DNA from: Galbibacter marinus
Lineage (GTDB): Bacteria; Bacteroidota; Bacteroidia; Flavobacteriales; Flavobacteriaceae
Length of the DNA stretch: 33,279 nucleotides
NCBI RefSeq assembly: GCF_000300875.1
Contig: NZ_AMSG01000029.1
Span: 1 to 33,279, forward strand
Reading direction: 5' to 3'
The notes beneath the pieces are model-generated. The model did not search any database. It had not been told where the DNA came from and saw nothing but the letters and a program-made list of their open reading frames with translations. This document shows positions 1-16,209 of the stretch, piece after piece; the stretch's first letter is position 1; every line of letters starts with the position of its first letter. The translations under genes and the position numbers were made by a program.

Positions 1-692
1 TCAATTTAGACCCAACTTTTGAGATTGATCCATCATTCCTAAAGCCCTCGCTGAGTAGCCTCCCCAATTTCTCCTTTATTTGAAATTCATAAAGATCAAT
101 TAAAGTCCATATAGCCTATTTCGCCCAGAGAATAACCCGGGAAAAGTAAATGTATTATAATCTAAAAAGGGACATACAGTCGTTAGAAGACCTAAAAGAC
201 ATTTTAAATTAATGCTCCAAAAACTCATAATTATGTTGAAAACACACCTTTCTACAAAAGAAGCTTTATTCGTTGAAAACTCCCATTTGATACGTGTTTT
301 TAAGGAATAAAGAGAGTGCTCCTTCCTATTAATCTATTTCAGTTTAGTTCTCCAGAATGATTAATTGTTCTCCAAAACCAATTCATTCCATGGTATATAT
401 TTTAAAATATATACCATTTAAATAGACATTGAAAAAGATAAAGGAATTATGATGACCGACCATTATTACAATGATGTACTTGAAATAGCTGACGGGTACT
501 TTATTTTGAAGGAAGCAAAAAATTGATATAATTCACAAATCGGATCTCGTTAAACATGAGTATCTAAAAGACAAATGAAGTAAAGTGCATTCGTGCTGTT
601 CGCCTCCATTTTGAATTGTTTTTAATTCCTAAACAATCCGATTTAGCTATAGCTCTACCCGTATGTCTAAAATCAAAGTTTTGGAGAAGGTT
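1..692. other. Gene-free left edge
   Basis: No convincing gene is visible. Two mini-ORFs exist on the plus strand: 233-310 (25 codons) and 449-526 (25 codons, preceded by an AAGGAATT stretch). A startless open frame runs on the minus strand at about 2-120 off the left edge. None matches a family I recognise. The stretch looks like decayed or regulatory sequence downstream of the exopolysaccharide operon. Its one striking element is the palindrome at 390-417. Confidence 0.5.
390..417. repeat. Perfect 28-bp AT-rich palindrome
   Basis: The 14-base half ATGGTATATATTTT is followed directly by its exact reverse complement, with no loop. The flanking bases (C at 389, T at 418) no longer pair. It could be an operator, a cruciform-prone site or the scar of a mobile element. 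It lacks a T-tract next to a GC stem, so it is not a standard terminator. Confidence 0.8.
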
Positions 693-1235
693 CTAATTAC
701 CAGTATTGTCGTTATCGGTTGAGGTTTCGATATAATAACCTTTATTATTCTCCTTGCCATCCACCAAACTTTTGATACTTCCGCTTGATTTTTGCTCCTC
801 AAAGTACAATTCTTCATAATCCTTAGTGTATAAGGCGTCAGGAACAACGTTGACATCAAATATTGCCTCCCGAGTCTTACCATCTACAAAGTTGCCGTAA
901 AGCGTGATATAATGCTTTGCAAGACCCACATTTTTTTGACTGTCATAACTCAAACGCAAAACACCTGTTTCTCCTTTGGGAACAAAATCCAAAGTTGATT
1001 TACCAGAGAGGTATAAACACCCACAAGAAGTAATAACCTCATCGATAATTAGTGGGTACTCCCCTGTGTTATTAATATAAAAAACAACGTCCAACTCCTG
1101 CCCTGCCAGTACGGGCCAATAATGCCTATTGTTATCTAGTATCTCAATGGAAGTTTTCCGGTCTTTGATATCAGTACCGCAAGCCCATAATGCCAGGGAA
1201 ATGACCGAAATCAATAACCACAGTTGTGTTTTCAT
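693..1235 (-). CDS. DUF1573-family lipoprotein
   Basis: This 180-residue protein begins with a lipoprotein signal: a hydrophobic stretch ending LALWAC, so Cys19 would be the lipidated residue. The rest is one Ig-like DUF1573 domain, marked by the signature SCGC in an Asp-Glu-Val-rich strand and by the following GETGVLRLSYDS stretch. The C-terminus (about residues 140-180) is polar and probably flexible. DUF1573 proteins are common in Bacteroidota and have no settled function. It is the last gene of the leftward exopolysaccharide-type operon, 23 bases after the DUF4838 gene. By position it could be a periplasmic or outer-membrane accessory factor, but that is inference. Family assignment is fairly sure; the role is unknown. 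Confidence 0.8.
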   Translation of the reverse strand: MKTQLWLLISVISLALWACGTDIKDRKTSIEILDNNRHYWPVLAGQELDVVFYINNTGEYPLIIDEVITSCGCLYLSGKSTLDFVPKGETGVLRLSYDSQKNVGLAKHYITLYGNFVDGKTREAIFDVNVVPDALYTKDYEELYFEEQKSSGSIKSLVDGKENNKGYYIETSTDNDNTGN

Positions 1236-1258
1236 ATTTTCTTTTTTATAATTCTTTT

Positions 1259-3364
1259 TTACTTTATTAGTCTAACCTCATCCAAAGCAATCGTTGATTT
1301 ACCCCCTTGTTTTTTTTTGAATATTCGGATCTGCACGGCTTTGGTATTCTCAGAAAAATCCACCTCTGTTCGGATGCGGTAAACTGTTTCTGAGATTTTC
1401 GTAGGAACTAGGGTGTATAACACCTGACTTCCATTGGTTATTTCCACCTGCTCTGGGGATAATATCCCATGTTTAGACATATTTAAAAAACGCATTTCCA
1501 GAACATTCCCTTTACCTTCACTGGGTAGTTCCATTGACAATTCCCATACCTCACCTCCATTAATCACCCATCCTTGGTGGTAATCATATGTAAAACCACT
1601 TAAACCATCGTAAAGAATACTAGCATCTTGATAATCGTGATCAGGAACAGATACAAAAGAAATACCGCTTTGGGATAACATATTGGGTTCTAATCCATGC
1701 TGTACCAAGTCTTCCCACTGCTCTATATAAGTAAGTAAACCTCCACGTACTTCTCGATAATTTGCCATATCCGAAAATCTACCATGTCGTTTTAATCGTT
1801 CTATGATTTCTTTTATCTCTGGTTTGACATGGAGATGATCAGATGTTTTTTCAAAGCCTCCATGATCCCCTAAACCTTCGTGATAAGCAACCTGTAATCG
1901 TGTAAAACTCAAGGCTGTTATTAATTTATCCAAACGAAGGTACTCTTCACCTGAGCTCTGGTTAACCATAACCTTAAGCGAATTGTAAAAGGAAACAAAT
2001 TGCTCGGTATTGAGATATGTCTTTACAATATTGTCAAAGCTTCCATAAAGTGGCCAGGGTCTATTATTGGTCATTTTATGATCTTCCAGTTGTAGGTAAT
2101 AATTGGCCAACAAAGCAGAAGATTTTGGATAAAATTTTTTCAAATACCGATGCACTAGAACATCAACATCTGAATCCTTGTCGATCATTAAGGCAGACAG
2201 AACATAGGTTTTCACATCATCAAAAGGAGAATAGTCATAACCGCTTCCATTTAAAAACAAGCCTTTCACGCCTGCTGACTTAAAGGAAGGTATCTGTTGT
2301 TGAAATCCTTTGAGAACCGGTAGTGGACTGAGGTAATCGTCAAAATTTGAGATATAACCCCAGAGATATATTTTAGATACTCTTTCTATCCAATTCTTAA
2401 GTTCTTTCTCCCATTTAGAAAATTTTGGATGTCCTTCCAGGTTGATGCCTTTTGGTAAATCTATGGACGTGAAAAACACTCCTGTATTGGTTGCCCAGGT
2501 TTTTCTTGGTGCTTCTCTTGTCGTCCTATATGCTATGGTAAAGAAGTGATGTTCCGGGTAATGATCAGCTAATTTATTCAACAAATACCCAACTGCTGGG
2601 GTTGCTAATTGGTCAGTATTCCCCAATTTAGAACATTGGTCACAAACGCAAACCAGATCGTTATCATTAGGTGCGACCATAAACCAATATGGTTTTTTGG
2701 TTCCGTCGCCGAACTGCTCCTCAACGTAGTGCTTAAGCTGTTTGTATAAGGCATTAGAGGAGAAGCAATACTGCTGCTTATTACTGACGCCATTGACTTG
2801 AGCATAAATTTCTTGATTTGCTACTATTAGCTTATGCAAATTATGACCCCATAAACCCCAGTTTTCATCGAGGTTATTTGTTCCCAAAATACCCGCATAC
2901 TCAGGATTGGTGTTTGGTTCAAGGTGTGGTTCGCGATATTCAAAATCAAACCTGCGACATTGGTCGCCAAAGCTTATAAATGAGGGCGGAAGGTCTGAAA
3001 TGGTAAAATTCTGATCTGTTTCACCAATACTTGCCATCAGCTGGTAGGTCACAAACAGCATGGCACGTTTATTTTTTACGCGCAGTATGAGAACGCCCTC
3101 CTTGTTGGAAAAGCAATAATCGTATTCCAATGTTGGCACGATCTCGAGATAGAACTCTTGATACCCAGTAGAGACCTTGAGATCTTCAGATTTGATTACC
3201 TTGGTTTTATCGAAACTCCTCATGTAAAGATGGCTGTATAGATAGTCCACCCATTGCCGGCTCAAGTGATCCTCCGCACCACTAATGCTATAGAATGATC
3301 CTTGGGCATAGACGCACCACTGAATACAGCTAAGCAGACAACATAGAAGCAATCGGGTCCTCAT
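1259..3364 (-). CDS. Secreted DUF4838 protein, glycosidase-like
   Basis: The 701-residue protein carries a Sec signal peptide ending near CVYAQG (about residue 21). The middle (about 130-450) matches the DUF4838 family, which is thought to adopt a glycoside-hydrolase-like barrel. Visible family marks are WGLWGHNLHKL (about 169-179), the segment ending in the Cys cluster Cys239-Val-Cys241 with Cys244, and aromatic barrel segments such as KIYLWGYISN. The last 140 residues look like a beta-sandwich of the carbohydrate-binding kind, with LYDGL and alternating strands. It lies only 4 bases after the TPR/barrel gene, so the two are translationally linked. In pga operons the comparable slot is held by PgaB, a deacetylase plus hydrolase. 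A polymer-trimming role here is plausible but unproven. I see no polysaccharide-deacetylase motif. Confidence 0.78.
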   Translation of the reverse strand: MRTRLLLCCLLSCIQWCVYAQGSFYSISGAEDHLSRQWVDYLYSHLYMRSFDKTKVIKSEDLKVSTGYQEFYLEIVPTLEYDYCFSNKEGVLILRVKNKRAMLFVTYQLMASIGETDQNFTISDLPPSFISFGDQCRRFDFEYREPHLEPNTNPEYAGILGTNNLDENWGLWGHNLHKLIVANQEIYAQVNGVSNKQQYCFSSNALYKQLKHYVEEQFGDGTKKPYWFMVAPNDNDLVCVCDQCSKLGNTDQLATPAVGYLLNKLADHYPEHHFFTIAYRTTREAPRKTWATNTGVFFTSIDLPKGINLEGHPKFSKWEKELKNWIERVSKIYLWGYISNFDDYLSPLPVLKGFQQQIPSFKSAGVKGLFLNGSGYDYSPFDDVKTYVLSALMIDKDSDVDVLVHRYLKKFYPKSSALLANYYLQLEDHKMTNNRPWPLYGSFDNIVKTYLNTEQFVSFYNSLKVMVNQSSGEEYLRLDKLITALSFTRLQVAYHEGLGDHGGFEKTSDHLHVKPEIKEIIERLKRHGRFSDMANYREVRGGLLTYIEQWEDLVQHGLEPNMLSQSGISFVSVPDHDYQDASILYDGLSGFTYDYHQGWVINGGEVWELSMELPSEGKGNVLEMRFLNMSKHGILSPEQVEITNGSQVLYTLVPTKISETVYRIRTEVDFSENTKAVQIRIFKKKQGGKSTIALDEVRLIK

Positions 3365-3368
3365 ATTT

Positions 3369-6173
3369 CTAAAATAAAATATTTACCTGCAAATACACAT
3401 TGAGTAAGTTACCATACTCCTGATCTGAAACCCTGTAGTTATTCATACTACCCAATATTGATCCCGATATATTTTTATAAATGGTATGACCAAATCCTGC
3501 ACCGATCATACTATTGGTCACAGCAAACGCATTATATAGCTGGTAATTAATTAGTTCTACATCGGGTGCGGAACCTACACTTGCTACAGCCATAATATAG
3601 CCATTGTGGGAAGAGAAGTAATGCCTGGTGTCCAACGACAGGCTATAGAGTAAAGCACCATCCAAATAAAATTGGTGGTATCTGGCATTGATTCGAAATC
3701 TATCCCACTCCTTTGCCGCTCCAAAAACCGCATTGTACATATTCCCATCGCTCATACCCTGATCTAATTGTTCGTCTCTGAAGCTTCGCAACCCTATTCC
3801 GAGTTCGAATTGAATTCCTTTGAGGATTTCAAAATACCTAAACAGAGAAGCATTAAAGCTTAACATCGGGAAAAACTTATTAGACACTGCCACATTAGCC
3901 ATAGTTGATGTTCTTTCACTCCAGTCCCGCAACCACTCTCCTTGAAATTGAAGCCCCTTACCGGAGGTTCTTCCAGTGTAATAAACCCTTCCAGTATAGG
4001 TGTTTTCGCCTGCAGTATGGCTGTATCCCACAGATGATATTGAATTACTGGCGTAAGTACTTTCTTGATCACGGCTTCTAAAATGAGAGAGTACTACCTG
4101 GTTTTTATAGGTTTTGTTTTGAAGATAATTCAAACGACTTTTAAATCCTGTACGCTCCAAATCAGAAGGTTTGTAAAACCCTTGGTAATAATAGGCCGAG
4201 TCGAACTGCTTTAATTGCTCATAAGCCAATCCTTTTGTGTGCTTTAAAGACATGCTATTCGGCTCATAATGCAGAGCAGTGTTGAGCTTGTCTAAGGCTT
4301 CATTAGAATGCTTTTCTTTCAATAAAGCGAGAGAGTAATTCGTAGAAGTCTCCGAAAAAGCCTTTATCAACATTTCGTGATATGGGTTGGCTTTTAATTC
4401 ATCATGTAAGCCTTGGTAAACCTTCTCATAGGTATCAATATCTGCATTCTCACTATTGAGTTCTGCCAGTTTGATCTTAAAGAAGATATTTTCCGGATGA
4501 TATTGCTCCCCTTGTTCCACATAGGTACGCATCCGTTCAAGTGCATTGGTTTTATGAGCTAAGTTTATGGCATATCCAAGGGCTTTCTCGTTTGTAGGAT
4601 CATTATTCAACCAGAGATCAACAAAGTACAGAGCATCATCGTATCTAAAGTCCTTATTAAGATTAGTTACGACTTGTTCGGCCATATCAGCATACCCTCC
4701 AAGATAAACCTGCTTCTGATTTTCGTCAACCATGCCAACTGCCTTTTCATAAGCAGCAAAGGCCTGTGAGTAGCCCTTTTGTTGAAAGTAGAGTTCAGCT
4801 CGTTTGATTTGCAATTGCGGGGTGTTATCCTCTAAAGCAATGTCATCTAAAACAGCTAAAGCGTTACTGTAATCTTCATTTGCCAAATAGGCATTAAACA
4901 AAGTGTTTTGAGCATCAGCCCTCAACTGCCCACCTCCAAACTCCACCACTTGTTTTAAAAAAATAATGGCCTGGCTATAGTTTTCTGCTTCCATTCTATC
5001 CTTAGCCTGACTATATATCGTATTGACGTATGCAGCTCTCACGTTAGGATCATTGGAATATTGTGCAAAAAGTTCCTCCGCCACGCGATTTTCCTCCGCG
5101 GTGTTTCCCAAACGATTATATACCATCATTTCGTTTAATGACAATTCCTTGGAGTTGCCCCGAGCACTTTGATGATTTTTAACAATAAGTAAGGCTTCTT
5201 GATACTGCTGGTTTCGCATGGCATCATTAAACATATAACGGTAAGCCTCCTTATCCCCAGGATTAGCAGTCATTATTTTTCCATACAATGTCAAAGGTTC
5301 CTTGTCTCTCGCATCTCTGGCTGCTTCTTGTAAATAATATTGGTATTGCTCATAACGCTTGTTGCGCTGCAGAAATCCAAGGAGCTCATTATAGCGGTTT
5401 TGTTGAGCGAGAATCCCCGTCTTTTTATCGATGAGCAGTTCATTTTGTGGAAATCGAACCAATCCGCGTTCAACAAAGGCCAATGCACCTTCCTGATCAC
5501 CAGCTTTAAGATAATCATTTGATGCATTAATGTAATTGTTAATATTTTCGGGACTTTCCGTAACCAATTCCTTACTAAGCTGAATTGCTTTATCCATATC
5601 TCCAGCCATCCGATTGGCATTGGCTTGAACCTCCAGTTGATAGAGGTAGTCTTTCTTAAGAACACTGTCATTTGGAAATATCTGATTGATCCGTTTTTGC
5701 AAGCGATCAGCCTCAACAGCATTACCCTGCAATCGGTATAAGCCTATTTTCTTCCGCCATAGTCCCTTCCAATAGGGGTTAATCTCCAGAAGTTCGTTGA
5801 CATAACATATTGCACTAGAATAGCGGCCTGTTTCAGTTTCTAGGGTGACTAATAAATGTCTTGAATCGACATTTTCCTGATTGTATCGTATGGATCTATT
5901 CAATTCTAATCGAGCATTGTCATAATCTTTATGCTGTAGATGGTATTTCCCAACGAGCATTTTTAAATCGGAGTCCTTTGGGTACTTCTTAAGATTCTTA
6001 TCAGCGAGATCTTTACCTTGTTCCCAGCTCCCATCTGCATACAACTTGTTGATATGCCTTACAAGCTCACTCTTATCATTTAGAGTGATTTCTGTCTGTG
6101 CGTTAAGACTATATGGCAAAACAACACTGACAAGCAATAGCCGAACGAACAGTACTTTTGCTGACAGCTGCAT
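3369..6173 (-). CDS. TPR protein with YaiO-type outer-membrane barrel
   Basis: The open frame extends to an ATG at 6236. A good signal peptide (MQLSAKVLFV to LNAQ) begins only at the internal ATG at 6173, which I prefer; that gives about 934 residues. After the signal comes a long array of tetratricopeptide repeats (roughly 600 residues), seen as repeating helical pairs with Gly/Ala/Tyr at the usual positions. The last 250 residues are beta-rich, with alternating aromatic residues, and end in phenylalanine, as outer-membrane barrels do. They resemble the YaiO family. The design, periplasmic TPRs plus an export barrel, is that of PgaA or BcsC/AlgK-E type secretins for polysaccharide. It lies 14 bases (long start) or 77 bases (short start) after the glycosyltransferase gene, so it is probably the exit pore and scaffold of that synthase. 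Confidence 0.85.
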   Translation of the reverse strand: MQLSAKVLFVRLLLVSVVLPYSLNAQTEITLNDKSELVRHINKLYADGSWEQGKDLADKNLKKYPKDSDLKMLVGKYHLQHKDYDNARLELNRSIRYNQENVDSRHLLVTLETETGRYSSAICYVNELLEINPYWKGLWRKKIGLYRLQGNAVEADRLQKRINQIFPNDSVLKKDYLYQLEVQANANRMAGDMDKAIQLSKELVTESPENINNYINASNDYLKAGDQEGALAFVERGLVRFPQNELLIDKKTGILAQQNRYNELLGFLQRNKRYEQYQYYLQEAARDARDKEPLTLYGKIMTANPGDKEAYRYMFNDAMRNQQYQEALLIVKNHQSARGNSKELSLNEMMVYNRLGNTAEENRVAEELFAQYSNDPNVRAAYVNTIYSQAKDRMEAENYSQAIIFLKQVVEFGGGQLRADAQNTLFNAYLANEDYSNALAVLDDIALEDNTPQLQIKRAELYFQQKGYSQAFAAYEKAVGMVDENQKQVYLGGYADMAEQVVTNLNKDFRYDDALYFVDLWLNNDPTNEKALGYAINLAHKTNALERMRTYVEQGEQYHPENIFFKIKLAELNSENADIDTYEKVYQGLHDELKANPYHEMLIKAFSETSTNYSLALLKEKHSNEALDKLNTALHYEPNSMSLKHTKGLAYEQLKQFDSAYYYQGFYKPSDLERTGFKSRLNYLQNKTYKNQVVLSHFRSRDQESTYASNSISSVGYSHTAGENTYTGRVYYTGRTSGKGLQFQGEWLRDWSERTSTMANVAVSNKFFPMLSFNASLFRYFEILKGIQFELGIGLRSFRDEQLDQGMSDGNMYNAVFGAAKEWDRFRINARYHQFYLDGALLYSLSLDTRHYFSSHNGYIMAVASVGSAPDVELINYQLYNAFAVTNSMIGAGFGHTIYKNISGSILGSMNNYRVSDQEYGNLLNVYLQVNILF

Positions 6174-6250
6174 ATGGCTTATACCCCTAAAGGTTGATAA
6201 AGGAAATCTGTTTCCTAATTCTTTTGTTGATACCATTACTTGATTCTATT

Positions 6251-7696
6251 TTATTTGGTAACCTGAAGTTTGTTCTGCGGTTTGTTTTTGGAATGACCTT
6301 GCCTTGTCATTTCTCCCCATTTGAAGTTTCTTCCGGTAAGAAACTGCACATAACCTCTAAGGGTGAATACTATAGTTAGAGGATGATATACAAATGCTTC
6401 GAAAGATGCAAAGAGAATAAGTTTGAGGTACTCAGAGAGGTTATTGTACAATTTTTTAACCGTCAGGTCATAGCTGATGGTCAACAGTGAAACACAGGTA
6501 CCCAAAAGATAAACATAACCTAACATCAGCCAAAACGTATTGAAGTTCACCTGGCCGGTCCATAAAAGATAAAAAAGACACAATAACCCAAAAAATTCAA
6601 AAATTGGTGCAAGAAATTCGAAAATAAAGATGTAGGGCATCATGATCCAGCCCATACGACCGTACTTTCTGTTAAATAAGAACTTGCGGTGTACAAAGAA
6701 GATCTGCAAAAGACCTCTTCCCCAACGGGTACGTTGGCGACTAAGAACCTTGAGGTTTGGTGGTCCTTCTGTCCAACATAATGTATCAGGTACTTGGACA
6801 ATTCTGTATTGCTCATTGTTGTCACGCTTGTGTGCAATAATACGCAATGTCATATCGAGATCTTCAGCATGAGATAGGGGATCAAAACCACCCGCCTCTA
6901 TGACGATTTCTTTATTAAACAGTCCGAATCCACCCGATACATTGGTAACAGCATTAATCCTTGCCCATCCCATTTTAGCGACCAAATAAGACCGCATATA
7001 CTCGACTTCTTGAAAGGCAGGAATGATTCCTTTTGGTGGTCGTACTTCAGTGATTTCTCCATTGTCCACTTTGCAACCATTGGACATACGCATTGTAGCA
7101 CCAACCGCGATGACCTCAACATCGGAATCCATCACGGGAAGAATTACCTTAGTTAAGGTGTCCTTGGCCAATAGACAATCTACATCTGTATTTATAAAAT
7201 AATTGTGCCTAGCGACATTAACACCCGCGTTCATCGCATCTGACTTGGTCCCTCCATTAATTTTATCAACCACAGTCAATCGTTCAAATTGAGGATCTGT
7301 AGAACGGAAAATTCGCTTTACAGGTTTACATGGCACTTTACTTACATAAGCATAAGGCACTTGGGTGAGCGCAAAATGCTCGATAAGTAAATCCAAGGTT
7401 TTGTCCTTACTACCATCATTGACAATCACCACCTCGAAATTAGGATAATCCAAATTCAACAGTGTGCTTACATTATCTATAATAATAACCTCCTCATTGA
7501 AAGCAGGGGCAACAATAGATATCCCAGGAGCTGATTCGGGATGTTTTTTAAGGATCCGCTCTTCTTTACCACTGTAGCTCTGCTTACTTCGGATAATGTT
7601 AAAGTAGGCCATTAAGGCTAAGGTAGAATATATTAGCGTAAGGGCTGTGGCATAGAAATAGATCACATATTGATAAAATACAAAAAATGCTTCCAT
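6251..7696 (-). CDS. Processive family-2 glycosyltransferase (PgaC/IcaA-like)
   Basis: This is a 481-residue inner-membrane synthase. One membrane helix lies near residues 8-31 and about three more after residue 350. The GT2 catalytic core between them shows the nucleotide-binding NDGS (93-96), the metal-binding DVD (171-173), the acceptor acid motif with Glu278-Asp279, and QRTRW (321-325). The last is the Q/RxxRW signature of processive synthases such as PgaC, cellulose synthase and hyaluronan synthase. The family polymerises UDP-sugars and threads the chain across the membrane. The product cannot be deduced; poly-N-acetylglucosamine or another beta-linked polymer is possible. It is followed closely by the barrel gene and preceded by the HEAT protein, all on one strand. 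No PilZ domain is visible. The general class is very sure; the sugar is not. Confidence 0.9.
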   Translation of the reverse strand: MEAFFVFYQYVIYFYATALTLIYSTLALMAYFNIIRSKQSYSGKEERILKKHPESAPGISIVAPAFNEEVIIIDNVSTLLNLDYPNFEVVIVNDGSKDKTLDLLIEHFALTQVPYAYVSKVPCKPVKRIFRSTDPQFERLTVVDKINGGTKSDAMNAGVNVARHNYFINTDVDCLLAKDTLTKVILPVMDSDVEVIAVGATMRMSNGCKVDNGEITEVRPPKGIIPAFQEVEYMRSYLVAKMGWARINAVTNVSGGFGLFNKEIVIEAGGFDPLSHAEDLDMTLRIIAHKRDNNEQYRIVQVPDTLCWTEGPPNLKVLSRQRTRWGRGLLQIFFVHRKFLFNRKYGRMGWIMMPYIFIFEFLAPIFEFFGLLCLFYLLWTGQVNFNTFWLMLGYVYLLGTCVSLLTISYDLTVKKLYNNLSEYLKLILFASFEAFVYHPLTIVFTLRGYVQFLTGRNFKWGEMTRQGHSKNKPQNKLQVTK

Positions 7697-7784
7697 AACT
7701 TTTTGGTAAAAAGTGGGGTTTTCTGTCGCTTTTCAACACAAGGATGCGCCAAAAGGAGGATAGAGAAAAACCCAAAAGTGTGTG

Positions 7785-8939
7785 TTAGTTTAATTGGTAA
7801 TCGACTTGTGCATAAAGTGTTTTGTCAAATTCACTTTTAGTAACAACCACAGCTTTTAAACGGGATTTTCCTTGTTCCCCATATTGACCAATGGCATAAG
7901 CTAATTGAGTTTTTGTATCACTGTCAAAGGTTTGGTTATAAATAGTAATTAGGAAATCCAATACCTCCATACCACCAAGGTTCGGCAGAGATTTGATAAT
8001 ATTACGTTGAACCAACTTAGGAGAAACCTCATAGCTTTCCATAAACACCTCCTTAGCCAAAGTGTACTTCATTATCCCTAAAGACTTGACAATCTCGCAT
8101 TTTACTGTAATGTTGTCTTCTGTCTTAAAAAGCTCCAACAAAGCGGCACAACTGCCCGTTTGTTGAAAAAACCCTATTTCTCGAATCAAAAATGCACGAT
8201 ATCTTATATCAGACGCATCTACCCAGCTTATAAGTTGAGGCAATGCACTTTGTTTGGCTTGTTCACTCAAATAATAATGTAGGCGGATTTCATCCATGGC
8301 GTTAAATCCCGTATCAAAACCCTCTTCCAGAAATTTATAAGGATCATTAATATTGTATTTCATCATGGCCGCCCTAGCGTTTTTTCTAAGGCTCCCTTTT
8401 TTGTGGTATACCGATTGTTGAATGGAAGCTCCAGAAAGCCCGACGTTCAAATCATCTAATGCACGAATAGCTTCTTGTCTAAGTTTTGGACTACGAGCAC
8501 CCATAATTTTATTCCAGAAATCAATAATTCCAAAAGAATCCAATACGGTGACGTAATTATTTAGGTTTATTTTGTCGTGATTTGCTTGTCCTGCTTCAGT
8601 CAAGGCGACAATAAAGTCAGTAAACACTCGTTTTTGATAATTTCTTTTGACAAGAACCTTATCGTCCTTAAAGGTTTGGTTTATCTCATCCTGCTGATAA
8701 TTTTTAGAGGCATACAAAATGCTTTGTAGTCGATCAATTAAAAGACTTTCCTGTTTTCTTCTAGTGCGTTGGTAATCACTTTTTACCTTATGGGTTCTAA
8801 AGAATCTAAAAAAGGAAAAACAGTACACCAATAGTAGTACACCCACTAAAACGATGGTTGTTTTAATCACTATTGGGTATCCAACGAACTGAGAAAGCAA
8901 CCAGTTCCAATAATAACTTGCGTAGAAAATAAAATCCAT
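7785..8939 (-). CDS. Membrane-anchored HEAT-repeat protein
   Basis: The 384-residue protein has one clear membrane helix at about residues 24-46, then basic residues (RTHKVKSDYQRTRRK), so the rest is probably cytoplasmic. The remainder is all-helical with HEAT-like pairs, for example around KLRQEAIRALDDL, DIRYRAFLIREIGFF and ITVKCEIVKSLGIM. HEAT arrays are protein-binding scaffolds. As first gene of the operon, 88 bases ahead of the synthase, it could be a partner or regulator of the glycosyltransferase, in the structural place of PgaD or of a cyclic-di-GMP-type co-subunit. No enzymatic motif is seen. The repeat assignment is moderately sure; the role is inferred only from position. Confidence 0.7.
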   Translation of the reverse strand: MDFIFYASYYWNWLLSQFVGYPIVIKTTIVLVGVLLLVYCFSFFRFFRTHKVKSDYQRTRRKQESLLIDRLQSILYASKNYQQDEINQTFKDDKVLVKRNYQKRVFTDFIVALTEAGQANHDKINLNNYVTVLDSFGIIDFWNKIMGARSPKLRQEAIRALDDLNVGLSGASIQQSVYHKKGSLRKNARAAMMKYNINDPYKFLEEGFDTGFNAMDEIRLHYYLSEQAKQSALPQLISWVDASDIRYRAFLIREIGFFQQTGSCAALLELFKTEDNITVKCEIVKSLGIMKYTLAKEVFMESYEVSPKLVQRNIIKSLPNLGGMEVLDFLITIYNQTFDSDTKTQLAYAIGQYGEQGKSRLKAVVVTKSEFDKTLYAQVDYQLN

Positions 8940-9086
8940 ACTTTTTTATTAATAACCAATTTTGCCCCAAAGAGTTTAGGTTTATTAGGGGTTCAAAAAA
9001 AGTCTTTCAGCAATACTGCTTTAAACGTTTTTATCTTTAAAAAGCATCTTGTTGTAGGTATGATGCGAAATTGATTAAATTCGGTG

Positions 9087-9117
9087 CAAAGATCATCCAA
9101 AGTGTAAGTTTCTACAA
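9087..9117 (-). promoter_or_regulatory. Probable promoter of the exopolysaccharide operon
   Basis: On the minus strand TTG (9117-9115), a 20-base spacer and GATCTTTG (9094-9087) match the Bacteroidota consensus TTG-N19/20-TAnnTTTG with one mismatch in the -7 box. Transcription would start near 9080, leaving a leader of about 140 bases before the HEAT-protein start. The leader contains a 5-bp inverted repeat GCATC/GATGC at 9044-9066. Confidence 0.45.
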
Positions 9118-9507
9118 TACCCGTCCTGCACATATTGACGAATACGACTAACTAATTTACGTAAAACAGCTATTCGGCATAATTTTTAGAAAACTGATTT
9201 ATAGTGATTTGAAAAATTACAATATCCGATTATGCTAATTTTCGGCCTCTTTTAAAGTTTAGGATCAACGGTTTTAATTCATCGTTGAAACTAACATCCA
9301 AGCCATCAAAATTTTGAATAAAAAGGATAAATTGGCCTAATATTATTCAAAATCAGACCCTATTCTATCCAGACAAAATCAAATAAAATAAATTCTATCA
9401 AAATTCCTGATGATATACCCTTTACACTTTAGTGCCGTAAATCTCATTAAATGTTGCTTTTACACCTATTTTTATAATAAGCTCACGGAAAAATGACCGA
9501 GCTGCGA

Positions 9508-9520
9508 TGTCCATTGGACA
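9508..9520. repeat. Inverted repeat TGTCCA-T-TGGACA
   Basis: Two perfect 6-base arms are separated by one base, in the intergenic region about 215 bases ahead of the preferred VOC start. Size and symmetry suit a dimeric repressor or activator site. No matching regulator can be named. Confidence 0.4.
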
Positions 9521-9735
9521 ATAAAAATCGGGCACACTAGCACGGATTCGAAATAATTTGTATTTTAGTATTGATATAGGTTAAAATAGGAGAATTTAAA
9601 CCACTCCTTATCCATAAAGGATAAGAGTATAAAATTATCTTTCCTGTGAAGCCACATCCACCGCCAAATCAACCTAAAAAAAACGAATATTTTAATCATT
9701 TGATTATGTTCTTAATTGAAAAAAAGAAGAGCCAA

Positions 9736-10239
9736 ATGGACACTCAAAAAGCTCCCTATAGTATCCCTTCGCAAACCCGGATAGGGCATATACACCTAAA
9801 GGTAGCGGACATGGAACGCTCTTTGAAATTTTACTGCGGCCTATTAGGCTTTAAAGAAACAAGTCGCCACGGCTCACGTGTGGTGTTTATATCAGCTGGT
9901 GGTTATCACCAGCATATCGCGCTTAACACATGGTACAGCAAGAATGGGAAACCTCCTCTTCCCAACAATACAGGACTTTCACAAGTTTCCATTCTGTACC
10001 CTACTCGACGAGATTTGGCCTGTATTCTAAAACGGATATTGGATGCAAATTACACGATTTCAGGCGCTTCGGATCATGGGGTTTCCGAAAATTTGTATAT
10101 CGAAGATCCGGATAAAAATGTCATTGCTCTATACTGGGATAAGCCCTACGAATTATGGCCATTCCATAAAGATGGCACCCTTGAGATATACAATGTCCCA
10201 CTTAATATCACAGAACTTTTAGAAACCACATCACGATAG
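9736..10239 (+). CDS. VOC-fold (glyoxalase/extradiol dioxygenase-like) protein
   Basis: The frame is open from 9646, but the first 30 residues are low-complexity and polar. The ATG at 9736 gives a natural start of 167 residues just before RIGHIHLKV. The sequence has the paired beta-alpha-beta-beta-beta units of vicinal-oxygen-chelate proteins: GHIHLKVADMERSLKFY at the front, a central HQHIAL strand, and a closing LYIEDPDKNVIALYWD with Glu/Asp. His residues in GHIHLKV and in the HQHIALN strand, and the late acidic strand, could hold the usual metal. It resembles CatE-type (catechol-2,3-dioxygenase family) proteins of unproven substrate. It converges on the AraC-type gene 18 bases downstream, which leaves little room for separate terminators. 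Confidence 0.8.
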   Translation: MDTQKAPYSIPSQTRIGHIHLKVADMERSLKFYCGLLGFKETSRHGSRVVFISAGGYHQHIALNTWYSKNGKPPLPNNTGLSQVSILYPTRRDLACILKRILDANYTISGASDHGVSENLYIEDPDKNVIALYWDKPYELWPFHKDGTLEIYNVPLNITELLETTSR

Positions 10240-10257
10240 ACTAAAACAAAAGCACTA

Positions 10258-11787
10258 TTACGGAGTACCTTTTTTGTTGTCTTGTAAGCGTGTAATGAAG
10301 ATTGATGGTGTTATTCCTGTTACCGCTTTAAATGCGGCCGTGTATTTGCTATGGGAAGAAAATCCATATTTCTCAGCCAAATAAGCAATTTTATAGGTCC
10401 GAAGTTCAGGGTTATTCTCAAGTTCAGCCATGCTTCGGCGCACCCTGATTTCATTCACATAACTATTAAACCCTAAGCCTTTGTTTCTATTGATCACATA
10501 AGAGACATATCGGGTATTCACGTTAAGTTTATTTGCCAACAATGAGAGGCTAAGGTTACTTTTTAAATAAAAATCATCATGTTCTAAAGCTTCCAATTCG
10601 GCTAAGATACAGTCAGATGTTTCTTTGGACATATATTCTTTTGTACTCGCTTGGTCATTCTGGTGGAGGTGAGCTTTGTTTTGTTTGTTTTTCAATTTTC
10701 TCCTACGTCCATAGAAATAGATCCCTACCCCAAGCAACACCAAAAAACATAACCCTGCCATTATGAAGGTAACAGTATTACGGGTGAAAAGAGCTTCTTT
10801 TAGCTTCTTGTCGGTTTTGGCAACTACCATATTGGCAAAATCCCGTTCTCTTTTGGACCTTTTAGTTATAATATCAAGATACTTTTGGTTGTATAAGGTA
10901 TAATTTTCAATATCCCCAACAAGTTTATAATATTTGGTCATGGCCAAAAAAACCCCCATATTCAGTTCTTGGAGTTTTGAAGCCTCTGCAACAGCCAATG
11001 CTTTGGACAATAATTCATAGGCCAGCTCTTTTTCTCTATTTACAATGGCAATTTCGCCCAGTCCTTTGTAAATATATCCTTTAATCACGGTCTCTGCCCT
11101 TGAGGCTCTGGCTTCCAATTCTAATGCCTTGTTGAAGTAATATTTTGCGGAATCTATCACTCCCAATTTAAACAAATTAGCACCTATTCGCTCTTTACTC
11201 TGAGCCCTAAAAGTTACCTTTTGAGGTGAATCAGGCAAACGTCTTAAAATGGTATCTGAAGTTTGAAAATAAGCAATGGCTTGTTCATAATCATTTTCTT
11301 CCTGAGCGTAGAAGCCCCTCTCTTGATAGATTTGACCCTGAATCTGGTTCGATAGTTCCCCTTGATCAACCTTTTCACACAATTCTTGTGCTTTATCTAA
11401 AAATTTATATCCATTGTTTAGCAGTCCGCTCTTTCGGTACTGGGTAGAAAGTACCCCATATATTCTAGCTCGCCATGCGGTTATTCTTTCACTCGTGGCA
11501 ATCCTATCTGCTTTCAAGGCATAGTGTAGCGTTGAATCCCTGTTTGATTTCCTGTAATACATATCAGAAATAAGCATAAGAGAACGGATTTTTTGTGTGC
11601 TTGTGGCTGAAGTTTTGTACAGTGAATCTGCGATTTTGAGCGCGTGATCAGGATCTGACGCCGCAACATTCATATAAGTGTAATAAAAAACACTATCAAA
11701 AGTCTTTTGCTGTGGATCAGTAGATTGCGCTAAGGTATTTTGGGTAAGAAGCAAGACGCAGCTAATTAAAGGAACAAAATGTTTCAT
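10258..11787 (-). CDS. TPR / transmembrane / AraC-type regulator
   Basis: The 509-residue protein has a signal peptide (to about residue 21, ending LAQS). A TPR-rich periplasmic or external region follows (about 30-325), then one membrane helix (about 335-357, FIMAGLCFLVLLGVGIYF) followed by RRRKLKNK. The C-terminal AraC-type DNA-binding domain (about 400-505) shows SLLANKLNVNTRYVSYVIN and the second helix-turn-helix KIAYLAEKYGFSSHSKY. This single-protein membrane-sensor layout is common in Flavobacteria. The signal and targets are unknown. The envelope loci on both sides (exopolysaccharide operon, lipoprotein, waaA) are candidates, but nothing in the sequence proves it. Confidence 0.88.
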   Translation of the reverse strand: MKHFVPLISCVLLLTQNTLAQSTDPQQKTFDSVFYYTYMNVAASDPDHALKIADSLYKTSATSTQKIRSLMLISDMYYRKSNRDSTLHYALKADRIATSERITAWRARIYGVLSTQYRKSGLLNNGYKFLDKAQELCEKVDQGELSNQIQGQIYQERGFYAQEENDYEQAIAYFQTSDTILRRLPDSPQKVTFRAQSKERIGANLFKLGVIDSAKYYFNKALELEARASRAETVIKGYIYKGLGEIAIVNREKELAYELLSKALAVAEASKLQELNMGVFLAMTKYYKLVGDIENYTLYNQKYLDIITKRSKRERDFANMVVAKTDKKLKEALFTRNTVTFIMAGLCFLVLLGVGIYFYGRRRKLKNKQNKAHLHQNDQASTKEYMSKETSDCILAELEALEHDDFYLKSNLSLSLLANKLNVNTRYVSYVINRNKGLGFNSYVNEIRVRRSMAELENNPELRTYKIAYLAEKYGFSSHSKYTAAFKAVTGITPSIFITRLQDNKKGTP

Positions 11788-12665: not shown

Positions 12666-13925
12666 TCAACCCGCTGAGGAATCTTTAAGTAATTTACGAA
12701 TATAATTGCCTATTTGGATTTTTGCACCCGTCTTTTTTTCTATATATTTTTTATTTATACGGCCTTTATCTTTTATAATTTCTTTATTATCAAGTAGAAA
12801 GTTTAATTTATTAAAAAATTCACCTTTTGTGGAAATCGACTCAATTCCACCCAACTCGACGAGTTTTTCCGCTTCTATAAATCCTCTATAATGCTTTCCT
12901 ATGAGAACTGGAATTCCAAAAACCGCAGGTTCTAGTGTATTATGTAAACCTGTAGAACCCATCCCTCCTCCAACATAGGCGATATCGGCATAGCTGTAAA
13001 TTCGTGTTAGCAGTCCAACGGTATCCACGATAAGAACCTTAGCCTGACCAATGATCTCTTGATCCAATTCAGAATAAAGGACCACATTTTTCTTTATAGA
13101 ATTTTTAAGTTTTTTAATCTGATCCCCTTCTATTTTATGTGGGGCAATAACCACTTTTAAATTTTCCCTAGCCGTGTTGTTGATATAATCCACTAGAATC
13201 TCCTGGTCTTCTATCCAAGTACTACCTGCTACCAAACAAAAGGAGTTCTCTATAAACTCTTCCATAAAGTCTAAGCTATTGTCCCGATCCAAGATCTCCA
13301 TTACACGATCATAACGCGTATCCCCGCTTACGGTGACATTTTGAAAATTAATACTATTTAGAAGCGATTTTGATTGCTCATTTTGCACAAAGAAATGTGT
13401 AAAAGACTTCAAAGAATGTGTCATAAAACTGCCATAGGACTTAAAGAATATTTGGTCGGGCCTGAAAATACCAGAAACTAGTAAAGTTGGAATGTGTCGT
13501 TTTTGAAGAAGTTTTAATGTATTAGGCCAAAACTCATATTTCACGAAAATAGCGAGCTTAGGATCCGCCAACTCTATAAATCTCTGCATATTTCCTTTGG
13601 TATCCAAAGGAAGATAGCAAACTAAATCCGCTGCCTTGGTATTCTTTTTAACCTCATAACCTGATGGAGAAAAGAAGGTGACCAATATTTTGTAGTTGGG
13701 ATATTCCCTTTTACACTGCTCAATTAAGGGGAGCCCTTGTTCAAACTCACCCAATGAAGCAGTATGAAACCAGATCAAAGGATTTTCTTTATTTAACTGG
13801 GTTTGTAAATAATCGAAAGTTCCTTTTCGGCCATGGACAAATCGCCTTATTTTATCACTAAACAATGCCACAACAAAGAGCAAACCACTGACGATATGTA
13901 CAACGATATTATATAAAAAATACAC
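12666..13925 (-). CDS. waaA: 3-deoxy-D-manno-octulosonic acid (Kdo) transferase
   Basis: This 419-residue protein transfers Kdo from CMP-Kdo to lipid A precursor at the inner-membrane face. The N-terminus has one membrane anchor (about 5-22). The GT-B fold shows FHTASLGEFEQG with the likely catalytic Glu60, then VTFFSPSGYE, KYEFWPNTL, SGDTRYDRV, and the C-terminal donor loop GGGMGSTGLHNTLEPAVFG. These match WaaA/KdtA, whose usual length is about 410-430. It supports a Gram-negative envelope with LPS. It is divergent from the degT-galE pair, with 100 bases shared. A weak -7 box (TATTTTAG, 13942-13949 on the minus strand) lies ahead of it. Confidence 0.95.
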   Translation of the reverse strand: MYFLYNIVVHIVSGLLFVVALFSDKIRRFVHGRKGTFDYLQTQLNKENPLIWFHTASLGEFEQGLPLIEQCKREYPNYKILVTFFSPSGYEVKKNTKAADLVCYLPLDTKGNMQRFIELADPKLAIFVKYEFWPNTLKLLQKRHIPTLLVSGIFRPDQIFFKSYGSFMTHSLKSFTHFFVQNEQSKSLLNSINFQNVTVSGDTRYDRVMEILDRDNSLDFMEEFIENSFCLVAGSTWIEDQEILVDYINNTARENLKVVIAPHKIEGDQIKKLKNSIKKNVVLYSELDQEIIGQAKVLIVDTVGLLTRIYSYADIAYVGGGMGSTGLHNTLEPAVFGIPVLIGKHYRGFIEAEKLVELGGIESISTKGEFFNKLNFLLDNKEIIKDKGRINKKYIEKKTGAKIQIGNYIRKLLKDSSAG

Positions 13926-14025: not shown

Positions 14026-15174
14026 ATGAGGAAAATACAGATGGTTGACTTACAAAGTCAATACCAAACTATAAAAGAACAAGTCAATAATTCTCTAACA
14101 GAAGTACTAGAATCAGCAGCCTTTATAAATGGCCCACAGGTTCAAAACTTTCAAAAAGAATTAGAATCCTATCTAGGAGTAAAACACGTCATTCCATGTG
14201 CCAATGGAACTGATGCTCTACAAATCGCAATGATGGGTCTAGAATTAAAACCTGGGGACGAAGTTATTACTACTGATTTCACTTTTGCAGCAACAGTAGA
14301 AGTTATTGGTCTGCTACAACTCACTCCTGTTCTAGTGGATGTCGATGCGGATACCTTTAATATAAACATAGAGGCCATTAAAAAGGCAATCACTCCGAAA
14401 ACAAAGGCTATTGTCCCTGTGCATCTCTTTGGCCAATGTGCTAATATGGAAGCAATCATGGAAATTGCCAAGGAACATAACTTATATGTTATTGAAGATA
14501 ATGCTCAAGGAATTGGAGCGGATTACACCTTTAGTAATGGTGAGAAGAAAAAATCTGGAACAATTGGTCATGTAGCTGCGACTTCCTTTTTTCCATCTAA
14601 GAACCTAGGGTGCTATGGGGATGGTGGAGCAATTTTTACCAACGATGACGACCTAGCACACTTCATACGCGGTATTGTAAACCATGGGATGTACGAACGT
14701 TACCACCATGACGTAGTAGGTGTGAATTCCCGATTGGACTCTATGCAAGCAGCAGTATTACGCGCTAAGCTACCTTTATTGGATTTATACAATAAGAAAA
14801 GACGACAAGCGGCCATTAAATACACCGCTGGGTTAAAAGACAACCCGAATGTTATAACTCCGATCTTAGCTGATAAAAGCGAGCTCACAGAAGATAACAA
14901 TCAGCATGTTTTTCATCAGTATACCCTTAGAATCACTAATGGAAAGCGGGATGAATTAGTAAAACACCTCAACGAAAATGACATTCCATGTGGAGTTTAC
15001 TATCCGATTCCGTTGCACTTACAAAAAGCCTATGTTGATTCAAGATATAAGGAAGAGGATTTTAAAGTAACCAACACTTTGGTGAAAGAAGTGATCTCTC
15101 TGCCTATGCACACAGAATTGGATGATGAGCAAATCGATTTCATTACAACCAAAATAAATTCATTTTTAAACTAA
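14026..15174 (+). CDS. DegT/DnrJ/EryC1/StrS-family sugar aminotransferase
   Basis: This is a 382-residue PLP enzyme of the family that aminates keto-sugar nucleotides (WecE, ArnB, PglE types). The PLP-binding lysine is Lys192 in SFFPSKNLG. The cofactor Asp lies in VIEDNAQGIG, and GTDALQIA binds phosphate. The FTFAATVEV and LFGQCANM stretches are typical of the family. The sugar cannot be named. It is 18 bases ahead of galE, so the pair probably feeds nucleotide sugars into LPS or other surface glycans. A specific role (such as WecE, FdtB or WbpE) would need close-homologue comparison. Confidence 0.92.
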   Translation: MRKIQMVDLQSQYQTIKEQVNNSLTEVLESAAFINGPQVQNFQKELESYLGVKHVIPCANGTDALQIAMMGLELKPGDEVITTDFTFAATVEVIGLLQLTPVLVDVDADTFNINIEAIKKAITPKTKAIVPVHLFGQCANMEAIMEIAKEHNLYVIEDNAQGIGADYTFSNGEKKKSGTIGHVAATSFFPSKNLGCYGDGGAIFTNDDDLAHFIRGIVNHGMYERYHHDVVGVNSRLDSMQAAVLRAKLPLLDLYNKKRRQAAIKYTAGLKDNPNVITPILADKSELTEDNNQHVFHQYTLRITNGKRDELVKHLNENDIPCGVYYPIPLHLQKAYVDSRYKEEDFKVTNTLVKEVISLPMHTELDDEQIDFITTKINSFLN

Positions 15175-15192
15175 TACCAAACACCAAAATTA

Positions 15193-16209
15193 ATGAGCAT
15201 ATTAGTGACCGGAGGTCTCGGTTTTATAGGATCTCATACCGTAGTAGAACTTCAAAACAAAGGATTTGACGTCATTATTATTGACAATCTTTCCAATTCA
15301 ACTATAGATGTACTTGATGGAATCAAGGCCATTACTGGAAAGGCACCCATATTCGAAAAATTAGATTTAAGAGAAAAATCTGCTGTTTCAGATTTCTTTA
15401 AAAAATACCCAGATATCGAAGGTGTTATTCACTTTGCAGCATCTAAGGCTGTTGGTGAGAGTGTAGAAAAACCACTGCTATATTACGAGAACAACATCAC
15501 CACCCTAGTCTATCTTTTACAAGAGCTTTCCGCTAAAAAAGATGTTTCGTTTATCTTTAGCTCTTCCTGTACCGTATACGGTCAAGCTGATAGCCTACCA
15601 ATTACAGAAGATGCGCCAGTGAAAACAGCAGAATCACCATATGGAAATACTAAACAAATCGGAGAAGAAATCATTCAGGACAGCTGCAAGGTTTATCAAA
15701 ACATCAAAGCAATTTCACTTCGTTATTTTAATCCTATTGGAGCGCATCACAGTGCTAACATTGGAGAATTACCCGTTGGCGTTCCACAAAACCTAGTTCC
15801 ATTTATCACCCAAACAGGCGTTGGTATGCGCGAACAACTTTCTGTATTTGGTGATGATTATCCAACAAAAGATGGCACCTGTATTCGGGATTACATTCAC
15901 GTGGTTGATTTAGCAAAAGCACACGTAGTGGCTGCCCAACGTTTAATTGAAAATAAAAACCAAAGCAATTACGAGGTCTTCAATGTAGGCACTGGAACAG
16001 GAAGTACTGTTCTTGAGGTTATTGCAAGCTTTGAAAAAGTAGCAGAAAAACCCTTAAACTATAAAATTGTTGATCGTCGCCCAGGCGATGTCATAGCCGC
16101 ATATGCCGACACCACTAAAGCAAACAACACCTTAGGTTGGAAAGCAGAATCCACCTTAGATCAGGCCATGACTTCTGCATGGAAATGGGAACAAAAAATT
16201 AGAAACTAG
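15193..16209 (+). CDS. galE: UDP-glucose 4-epimerase
   Basis: This 338-residue extended SDR enzyme interconverts UDP-glucose and UDP-galactose (often also the N-acetyl forms). It shows the NAD-binding TGGLGFIGSHT at the N-terminus and the HFAASKAVGESVEKPLLYYENN stretch (in pieces) typical of GalE. The catalytic Tyr150-x3-Lys154 is in SPYGNTK, and LRYFNPIGAH and RDYIHVVDLAKAH lie in the substrate half. The length is the family norm. It follows the aminotransferase closely and is closed by a terminator, so the two form an operon. Its product would supply galactose-type donors for surface polysaccharide. Confidence 0.95.
   Translation: MSILVTGGLGFIGSHTVVELQNKGFDVIIIDNLSNSTIDVLDGIKAITGKAPIFEKLDLREKSAVSDFFKKYPDIEGVIHFAASKAVGESVEKPLLYYENNITTLVYLLQELSAKKDVSFIFSSSCTVYGQADSLPITEDAPVKTAESPYGNTKQIGEEIIQDSCKVYQNIKAISLRYFNPIGAHHSANIGELPVGVPQNLVPFITQTGVGMREQLSVFGDDYPTKDGTCIRDYIHVVDLAKAHVVAAQRLIENKNQSNYEVFNVGTGTGSTVLEVIASFEKVAEKPLNYKIVDRRPGDVIAAYADTTKANNTLGWKAESTLDQAMTSAWKWEQKIRN

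Follow-up and report, generated by a model that had tools for sequence, protein, structure and literature searches.

A HEAT-repeat protein encoded beside a processive-type glycosyltransferase as the conserved core of a probable exopolysaccharide export system in Galbibacter marinus and other bacteria

Our analysis of a 33,279-nucleotide stretch of DNA from Galbibacter marinus (contig NZ_AMSG01000029.1; hereafter the window) points to a system for synthase-dependent exopolysaccharide export. It would belong to a family that has no name yet, in which a processive synthase of the GT2 type is likely to work with a near-obligatory, membrane-anchored HEAT-repeat partner. The conserved unit is a HEAT gene directly upstream of a gene of this GT2 family. 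The original prediction had instead taken five gene families as the unit; that there is one conserved unit was borne out, but the frame of five families is too narrow, since the HEAT-GT2 pair is far commoner and spans phyla.

In the window the pair belongs to a five-gene cluster on the minus strand (positions 693-8939 in the ORF listing), which encodes, in 5′-3′ direction of the transcript, a HEAT membrane protein, a processive-type GT2, a TPR protein with a YaiO-type barrel, a DUF4838 protein and a DUF1573 probable lipoprotein (Table 1). ORF coordinates agree with the predicted arrangement of five same-strand genes separated by 4-88 bases, the gaps from HEAT to DUF1573 being 88, 14, 4 and 23 bases. 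One of them would become 77 bases if the gene of the 955-aa TPR-barrel protein starts at its second methionine (position 6173), where a signal-peptide-like stretch begins and where the true start likely lies.

Table 1. Features of the Galbibacter marinus cluster, with positions in the window and the evidence for each.
Feature	Positions	Strand	Length	Evidence
Membrane-anchored HEAT-repeat protein, gene 1	7785..8939	-	384 aa	Pfam HEAT_2, hydropathy
GT2 with membrane segments, proposed polymer synthase	6251..7696	-	481 aa	Pfam, NCBIfam, motifs, tree
TPR + C-terminal YaiO-type barrel protein	3369..6236	-	955 aa	Pfam YaiO and TPR, AlphaFold model
DUF4838 protein, probably secreted	1259..3364	-	701 aa	Pfam, AlphaFold, Foldseek, profile match
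DUF4838 residue 336, codon GGT (Gly)	2357..2359	-		Alignment with 32 other proteins
DUF1573 (HYDIN-type Ig) probable lipoprotein	693..1235	-	180 aa	Pfam, LWAC lipobox

Bacteroides finegoldii has all five genes too, arranged as in the window; its synthase is 48.4% identical to that of the window, and the cluster thus is a conserved unit, as had been proposed. All five families occur together in 9 of 80 named loci (here and below the best 80 of at least 374 confirmed relatives) and in 3 of 104 loci of an even phylum sample, and the synthases of five-gene loci form one clade (support 100/99). We therefore regard it as extremely improbable that the genes lie together loosely or by chance, as would a DUF4838 gene for glycan utilisation that happens to adjoin an unrelated synthase: it is true that most HEAT-GT2 loci lack DUF4838, but the conserved order in distant relatives excludes a chance gathering, and this explanation was rejected. 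Over positions 1-10300 the sigma-70 scan gave 43 sites where 32.1 (sd 5.3) were expected, and the terminator scan gave 10 where 7.0 (sd 3.0) were. A promoter pattern of the Bacteroidota type gave 3 matches against 3.8 expected, none of them upstream of the HEAT gene, and we make no promoter claim.

The phylum sample comprised 395 evenly drawn Bacteroidota genomes, of which 94, about a quarter, carry the GT2 family. It gave 106 matches, from which the window's own was left out, and 105 loci were fetched; adjacency scoring omitted one locus with a truncated GT2 (L245) and gene-run scoring omitted another (L223). The resulting 104 loci come from fewer genomes, 12 of which had two matches. Adjacency was counted from six-frame profile searches; simple ORF calling misses genes in GC-rich loci. 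A HEAT gene lies directly upstream of the GT2 gene in all 104 scored loci, as it does in the window, and in 74 of the best 80 named loci across phyla. Conserved adjacency across Bacteroidota thus holds for the pair, and five of five families for the 3 loci mentioned above. Four of the six misses among the best 80 named loci are contig ends and two are apparent HEAT-GT2 fusions: in each a single ORF matches the HEAT profile over its N-terminal ~550 aa, although the scores of 26.5 and 18.5 bits are weak and include large composition corrections. The HEAT profile, which was trained on GT2-adjacent proteins, gave 194 matches in 2.9 Mb of related loci, and 192 of these fall in the slot beside GT2; of the other two, one is the same upstream gene in a longer form (L178) and one a second HEAT protein (L059). 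Two of the loci (L165 and L189) overlap in the same genome. The pair was found in Bacteroidota, eight further bacterial phyla and one haloarchaeon; environmental carriers include Mesorhizobium ciceri WSM1271 and Chitinophaga sp. YR627. Many of its loci also encode a CheY-like receiver or a YaiO barrel, and extracytoplasmic enzymes that vary from locus to locus. In the annotated records consulted, these genes have no more specific names than HEAT, glycosyltransferase, YaiO family, tetratricopeptide or hypothetical.

The HEAT protein itself (Pfam HEAT_2, 46.7 bits against a cut-off of 27.7) has one N-terminal membrane segment by hydropathy. Eight of the residues from 45 to 62, just behind it, are Lys or Arg, and because of this basic stretch the positive-inside reading predicts a cytoplasmic solenoid. 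We propose that it is a partner of the synthase. The original prediction had placed it where PgaD stands in Pga systems, and near-constant adjacency and the two apparent fusions strengthen the comparison with a PgaD-like inner-membrane partner, with contact between HEAT protein and synthase as our inference. As had also been predicted, none of the operon's ORFs of 80 aa or longer was found to encode a PgaD-type protein; it is the HEAT protein that adjoins the synthase.

The synthase scored 69.4 bits with Pfam Glyco_tranf_2_3 (cut-off 27) and carries the motifs DVDC, AEDLD and QRTRW of processive synthases together with four TM-like segments, so that the window encodes a membrane GT2 with processive motif, a general feature of synthase-dependent exopolysaccharide systems. 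The Q..RW motif is kept in 97 of 98 family members. Pga/Ica systems (pgaABCD, icaADBC) resemble the cluster in combining a GT2 synthase and a small inner-membrane partner with a TPR + barrel exporter and a secreted polymer-acting enzyme, and one might suspect a diverged pga operon that makes the same polymer (PNAG) by the same mechanism after loss or replacement of PgaB and PgaD. The synthase does reach 117.4 bits with NCBIfam PgaC_IcaA (TIGR03937), the TPR + barrel layout is like that of PgaA, and GlmS is encoded beside some members. However, 117.4 bits is far below the cut-off of 422.3, and TIGR03937 had no match in the whole genome at E 1e-20. In the tree, a branch supported at 97/99 sets apart the 59 HEAT-linked synthases, and both YaiP and PgaC, the latter on a long branch, lie outside. 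With the family profile E. coli PgaC scores 130 bits, whereas phylum members score at least 453 except for one truncated locus at 253. A search of the whole genome found no PgaB-type GHL13 domain, in agreement with the predicted lack of a PgaB-type protein, while the E. coli control was positive. The window further differs from Pga/Ica in having HEAT in the place of PgaD/IcaD and a DUF4838 fold instead of GHL13, and in the receivers beside most of its relatives. Canonical Pga was therefore rejected on score, tree and GHL13 absence, and a diverged form of it appears quite unlikely; the description of the synthase as PgaC-like is valid at superfamily level but not as membership in PgaC.

For the third protein, Pfam domains confirmed the predicted Pga-like architecture of synthase and TPR-barrel protein (TPR_19 60.5 bits, cut-off 25; YaiO barrel PF19413 51.3 bits, cut-off 23.9), and the barrel also passed TIGR04390 (34.2 bits, cut-off 32). 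An outer-membrane barrel with TPR scaffold, another general feature of synthase-dependent systems, is thus present, and we propose that the protein serves as periplasmic TPR conduit and export pore. The AlphaFold model (pLDDT 84.4, pTM 0.43) shows TPR-like helix pairs followed by 14 strands, against 16 in the PgaA barrel. Among the 50 Foldseek matches listed for this model, all were helical-repeat proteins by their titles and no barrel was matched. A YaiO-type barrel was found in the fetched stretch of 56 of 104 phylum loci and 53 of the best 80 named loci but in none of 15 Bacillota loci, in keeping with the lack of an outer membrane in these cells.

Such a barrel also occurs in the YaiO-YaiP-YaiS type system of E. 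coli, where it is likewise encoded with a GT2. A system of that type nevertheless seems very unlikely here: against the family profile YaiP reaches 62 bits, and in the tree it has the longest branch of all and lies apart from the HEAT-linked synthases. Instead of HEAT and DUF4838, the E. coli stretch (yaiS-yaiP-yaiX-yaiO) has genes for a deacetylase and for an acyltransferase that is broken by an IS; the HEAT profile found no match in it, and its yaiO gene, at 774 bases, could not accommodate the TPR part. No deacetylase is encoded in the operon of the window, and a YaiP-type assignment was rejected. Bacterial cellulose (bcs) systems also pair a processive GT2 with a TPR-barrel exporter, but with the CelA and BcsA models the synthase of the window scores much too low. 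XagABC of Xanthomonas was considered as a further candidate.

The cluster was predicted to be an undescribed system, and literature searches indeed found no published description of either the HEAT-GT2 pairing or the five-gene set. The main text of an operon survey of five exopolysaccharide systems contains neither 'HEAT' nor 'YaiO' (PMC7112194). Passages of papers on an iron stimulon (PMC10434189), on the lipocone (PMC12419801) and on a Xanthomonas genome, the last with a mention of xagBCD (PMC3826837), gave no relevant lead.

We suggest that the GT2 would polymerise a nucleotide sugar on the cytoplasmic face, most likely an amino sugar, perhaps with uronic acid, and thread the chain through its own membrane helices, while the HEAT protein would bind the synthase from the cytoplasmic side to hold or gate it. 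In diderms the chain would then follow the periplasmic TPR scaffold and leave via the YaiO-type barrel; in the branch of the window secreted DUF4838 might trim or bind the polymer during export, with DUF1573 as a putative envelope-anchored accessory. GlmS genes lie near four relatives (L018, L094, L098 and L238) and UDP-glucose dehydrogenase genes in 6 Bacillota loci, so that most loci have no substrate genes, and the five-gene clade of the window has none at all. LtaS-like sulfatase-fold proteins were encoded in 43 of 185 fetched loci, in 33 on the synthase strand, and recall BcsG of cellulose systems. They could also mean group transfer onto envelope glycans, and the GT2 might then make a short, lipid-linked or envelope-attached glycan rather than free exopolysaccharide; against this stand the Q..RW motif, the presence of a YaiO barrel in roughly every second locus and the large TPR domain, and we consider it unlikely. 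Beyond the export system itself, we tentatively raise the possibility that HEAT-GT2 is a separate and ancient synthase class of bacteria and some archaea, in which the membrane-anchored HEAT solenoid, under control of a phosphorylated CheY-like receiver or of some other signal, would gate the processive synthase of an amino-sugar polymer, sometimes with uronic acid and then glycosaminoglycan-like. Different lineages would plug in other parts, with DUF4838 and DUF1573 those of a Bacteroidota branch that includes gut and rumen Bacteroidales. If true, the export system would add a synthase class that is regulated perhaps via a protein adaptor and a receiver. It would also provide DUF4838 with a function that can be tested in these loci, and would point to a surface polymer of gut and environmental bacteria that has gone unrecognised.

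In most relatives the signal would probably come from the phosphorylatable receiver that is encoded beside HEAT, in place of the c-di-GMP/PgaD arrangement. How often a receiver is counted depends on the method: it is found in 84 of 104 phylum loci anywhere in the stretch scored, in 70 if it must share the strand of a core gene and lie no more than 400 bases from it, and in 74 in the same gene run, and among the best 80 named loci in 64 anywhere in the stretch and 41 near a core gene. Receiver matches are also common away from core genes (83 and 78 in two locus sets), and therefore only adjacency is informative. Of 48 stand-alone receivers, 46 keep the Asp read as acceptor and 47 the Lys. A receiver-profile search of the window gave no match, 3 of the 12 five-of-five loci have a receiver in the fetched stretch and the other 9 gave no match, and none of the three from the phylum sample has one in the run; receiver control hence cannot be the rule in the five-gene clade. 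Some HEAT-GT2 members have GGDEF proteins as neighbours or a GGDEF fusion to the receiver, so that c-di-GMP may also act.

The DUF4838 protein exceeds its Pfam cut-off (PF16126, 123 bits against 26.6), and its AlphaFold model (pLDDT 90.5) comprises a glycosidase-type N-terminal domain, a barrel-like part, a helical part and a C-terminal beta sandwich. Foldseek matches to the model were from GH20, GH115, GH138, GH84 and GH67, with TM-scores of 0.28-0.45 among the matches listed, so that the modelled likeness to glycosidases would be one of superfamily level; a profile match to 6q63 runs through the N- and C-terminal parts. The model resembles hexosaminidase and alpha-glucuronidase folds. PgaB was not among the 50 PDB matches listed, and the idea that DUF4838 takes the place of PgaB survives as a functional analogy at best. 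The protein shares its Pfam match with other PF16126 proteins and a modelled likeness with GH20/GH67/GH84/GH115 glycosidases, but the DUF4838 of the window is tied to a synthase operon and has Gly at the second of two conserved acidic sites. Residue D234 is conserved. At position 336, 31 of the 32 other proteins in the alignment have Asp and one has Glu; the protein of Chryseobacterium lacus has Asp there. These two may be the catalytic residues; because the conserved acid at 336 is replaced by Gly, the protein may lack its catalytic acid and hydrolysis may be dead in this strain. We propose that it is a polymer-processing or polymer-binding protein. Adjacency scoring placed DUF4838 in 19 of the best 80 named loci and 12 of 104 phylum loci; by other counts it is in 13 of 104 gene runs and, anywhere in the stretch, in 14 of 105 phylum loci and 20 of the best 80 named loci. 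The DUF1573 protein (Pfam 51.4 bits, cut-off 26.1) has an LWAC lipobox, recognised by eye, and is a probable lipoprotein. This family is present in 9 of the best 80 named loci and 3 of 104 phylum loci, in each case together with DUF4838 (9 of 9 and 3 of 3), and marks the five-gene subclade.

Our analysis confirmed the originally predicted single unit of five minus-strand ORFs, which are separated by gaps of 88, 14, 4 and 23 bases. The order of transcription is HEAT (a membrane HEAT-repeat protein), GT2 (a family 2 glycosyltransferase, the proposed polymer synthase), TPR-YaiO (a TPR protein with a YaiO-type barrel), DUF4838 and DUF1573, and all five family assignments exceed their own Pfam cut-offs. 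This order is repeated, again with short gaps and with a 988-aa TPR-barrel protein, on a Bacteroides finegoldii record (locus L014), and loci with all five families were found in other genomes as well. The L014 record is named plasmid 4; dapB lies on it too, and it may be chromosomal. About 700 bases upstream of HEAT are available for control signals; a pattern scan found no Bacteroidota-type promoter pattern in them, and generic scans gave no clear-cut signal.

Features of and around the five-gene clusters
Location	Strand	Feature	Remark
Window 693-8939	minus	five-gene cluster	
Window 9646-10239	opposite to cluster	VOC/glyoxalase family ORF	next ORF beyond HEAT
Window 10258-11787	same strand	TPR + AraC-type HTH regulator	beyond VOC gene; could be unrelated to cluster
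Window 12666-13925		Kdo transferase gene	near the genes of the next row
Window 14026-16209	plus	DegT aminotransferase and GDP-mannose dehydratase/epimerase-type genes	about 5 kb from cluster
L014 2193-7442		chondroitinase-family lyase, DUF6250 and DUF4842 genes	adjoin B. finegoldii cluster

The named loci, the best 80 of 374 relatives confirmed, come from a scan of one genome per species with a GT2 alignment. The synthase family was present (E 1e-120) in 94 of 395 genomes drawn evenly from the Bacteroidota, with 104 scored loci; within the Flavobacteriaceae it occurred in 23 of 100 genomes. All five families are present in nine of these best 80 loci and in 3/104 phylum loci; DUF4838 (12/104) and DUF1573 (3/104, all with five of five) are confined to a minority. 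At L026, L030, L031 and L035 the contig stops right after DUF4838, hence DUF1573 is not visible there.

The wider core is the HEAT-GT2 pair. HEAT lies directly upstream of GT2 in all 104 phylum loci and in 74 of the 80 named ones; four of the remaining six have less than 500 bases of upstream sequence. The other two are ORFs of 980 aa (L075) and 967 aa (L084) that look like HEAT-GT2 fusions, judging from weak HEAT-profile scores of their N-terminal halves (18.5 and 26.5 bits, respectively, once large corrections for composition had been applied). Both halves start with a hydrophobic segment; in the Pfam scan HEAT_2 was sub-threshold in L075 and absent from L084. Over 2.9 Mb of loci, 192 HEAT-profile rows fell in the slot beside GT2 and two elsewhere, one being a longer form of the upstream gene itself. 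Searching 198 genomes from the class with the window HEAT protein gave matches in 12 (own genome counted), and GT2 adjoins HEAT in 10 of these 12 loci. The pair was also found on plasmid records of Mesorhizobium, Erythrobacter, Devosia, Planococcus and the haloarchaeon Halosolutus. One genome (G318) carries two units about 6 kb apart (L165 with L189).

In a synthase tree of 64 rows, a 97/99 branch parts the 59 HEAT-linked synthases from PgaC and YaiP of E. coli and from three remote GT2s found on plasmid records; the exact position of PgaC and YaiP is unsure because of very long branches. The nine five-gene rows, including the window and L026 at its contig edge, form a single clade (100/99), whose neighbours are double-synthase Chitinophagaceae with a CheY-like receiver and DUF4838. 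Among the latter falls L027, a Chitinophaga-like double-synthase cluster on a contig labelled Beijerinckiaceae, which probably reflects mislabelling or contamination, or else a transfer.

Taken together, the cluster probably encodes an exopolysaccharide system in which HEAT partners the synthase. Beyond gene content and fold, we infer that GT2 most likely polymerises and translocates the chain, that HEAT would hold or gate it from inside, that TPR and barrel would export the polymer, and that DUF4838 would trim or bind it, with DUF1573 in a supporting part. The single hydrophobic segment of the window HEAT protein, followed by a strongly basic stretch at residues 45-62, predicts a topology in which the solenoid should face the cytoplasm. 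Synthase-dependent export is already known; as far as our searches go, the HEAT partner and the parts list are not, and the portion of the open-licence literature covered gave no description of either.

The true start of the TPR protein is probably its second Met (6173), which opens a stretch resembling a signal peptide. Its predicted model (pLDDT 84.4, pTM 0.43) has long TPR-type helix pairs and 14 strands at the C-terminus. The exporter PgaA combines TPRs with a barrel of 16 strands.

The AlphaFold model of DUF4838 drew on 17 sequences and is of good quality (pLDDT 90.5, pTM 0.89). DUF4838 had been proposed to take the place of PgaB, the secreted Pga enzyme, yet PgaB was absent among the Foldseek matches listed; the best were BT0459 (6q63) and GH115, GH138, GH20, GH84 and GH67 enzymes, with E down to 2.5e-16 but TM-scores of just 0.28-0.45 among those listed. 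A sequence profile reached 6q63 at 1.1e-14 via N-terminal and C-terminal parts, the barrel not being covered. An alignment of 34 proteins shows Asp234 in every one of the 33 that have a residue at this site. At position 336 it shows Asp in 31 proteins, Glu in one and Gly (codon GGT) in the window alone. If 234 and 336 are the catalytic pair, as proposed here, the window protein may bind rather than cut, or Gly336 may reflect a recent base change or sequencing error.

A CheY-like receiver lies within the gene run of the core in 74/104 phylum loci. Alignment of 48 stand-alone receivers shows the presumed acceptor Asp conserved in 46 of them and the Lys in 47. In the phylum sample, no receiver lies in the run of any of the three loci with DUF1573; the window has no receiver-profile match, and of 12 five-of-five loci from both sets, three have a match in the fetched stretch and nine have none. 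In some other loci GGDEF domains adjoin or are fused to receivers. Receiver control has about an even chance in the wider family and would be possible in the five-gene clade only through an unlinked receiver. L173, L175, L189 and L190 combine HEAT, GT2, YaiO and DUF4838 with a downstream receiver.

Of 185 loci, 43 encode LtaS/sulfatase-fold proteins; the gene shares the synthase strand in 33 and lies on the opposite one in 10. Very long GT2 ORFs (1134-1270 aa) were seen at L167, L168, L171, L172, L174, L176, L194, L197 and L198; in the two of these scanned with Pfam (L167, L198) a sulfatase-fold domain is fused to GT2. All nine loci match sulfatase queries on the GT2 strand, adjoining GT2, which points to a putative polymer-decorating enzyme. 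None of 15 Bacillota loci had a barrel match. Four large Bacillota proteins tested (L068, L017, L089, L071) lack Pfam matches and were read by eye as partly putative TIM-barrel glycosidases. Large proteins of two related kinds adjoin HEAT-GT2 at L017, L054, L071, L082, L086 and L095 (Bacillota and one Myxococcota contig) and are possible glycosidase-type partners. UDP-glucose dehydrogenase was found in six of the best 80 of 374 relatives, all Bacillota, and GlmS in L094, L098, L238 and the archaeal L018; L226 has a weak GlmS match on the opposite strand. These neighbours, in a minority of loci and none in the window's clade, hint at an amino sugar, alone or together with uronic acid. At L235-L243 (mostly family f73), an NAD-dependent epimerase lies upstream of HEAT in six of nine loci; the downstream protein is GlmS at L238 and a CHASE3-GGDEF cyclase at L239.
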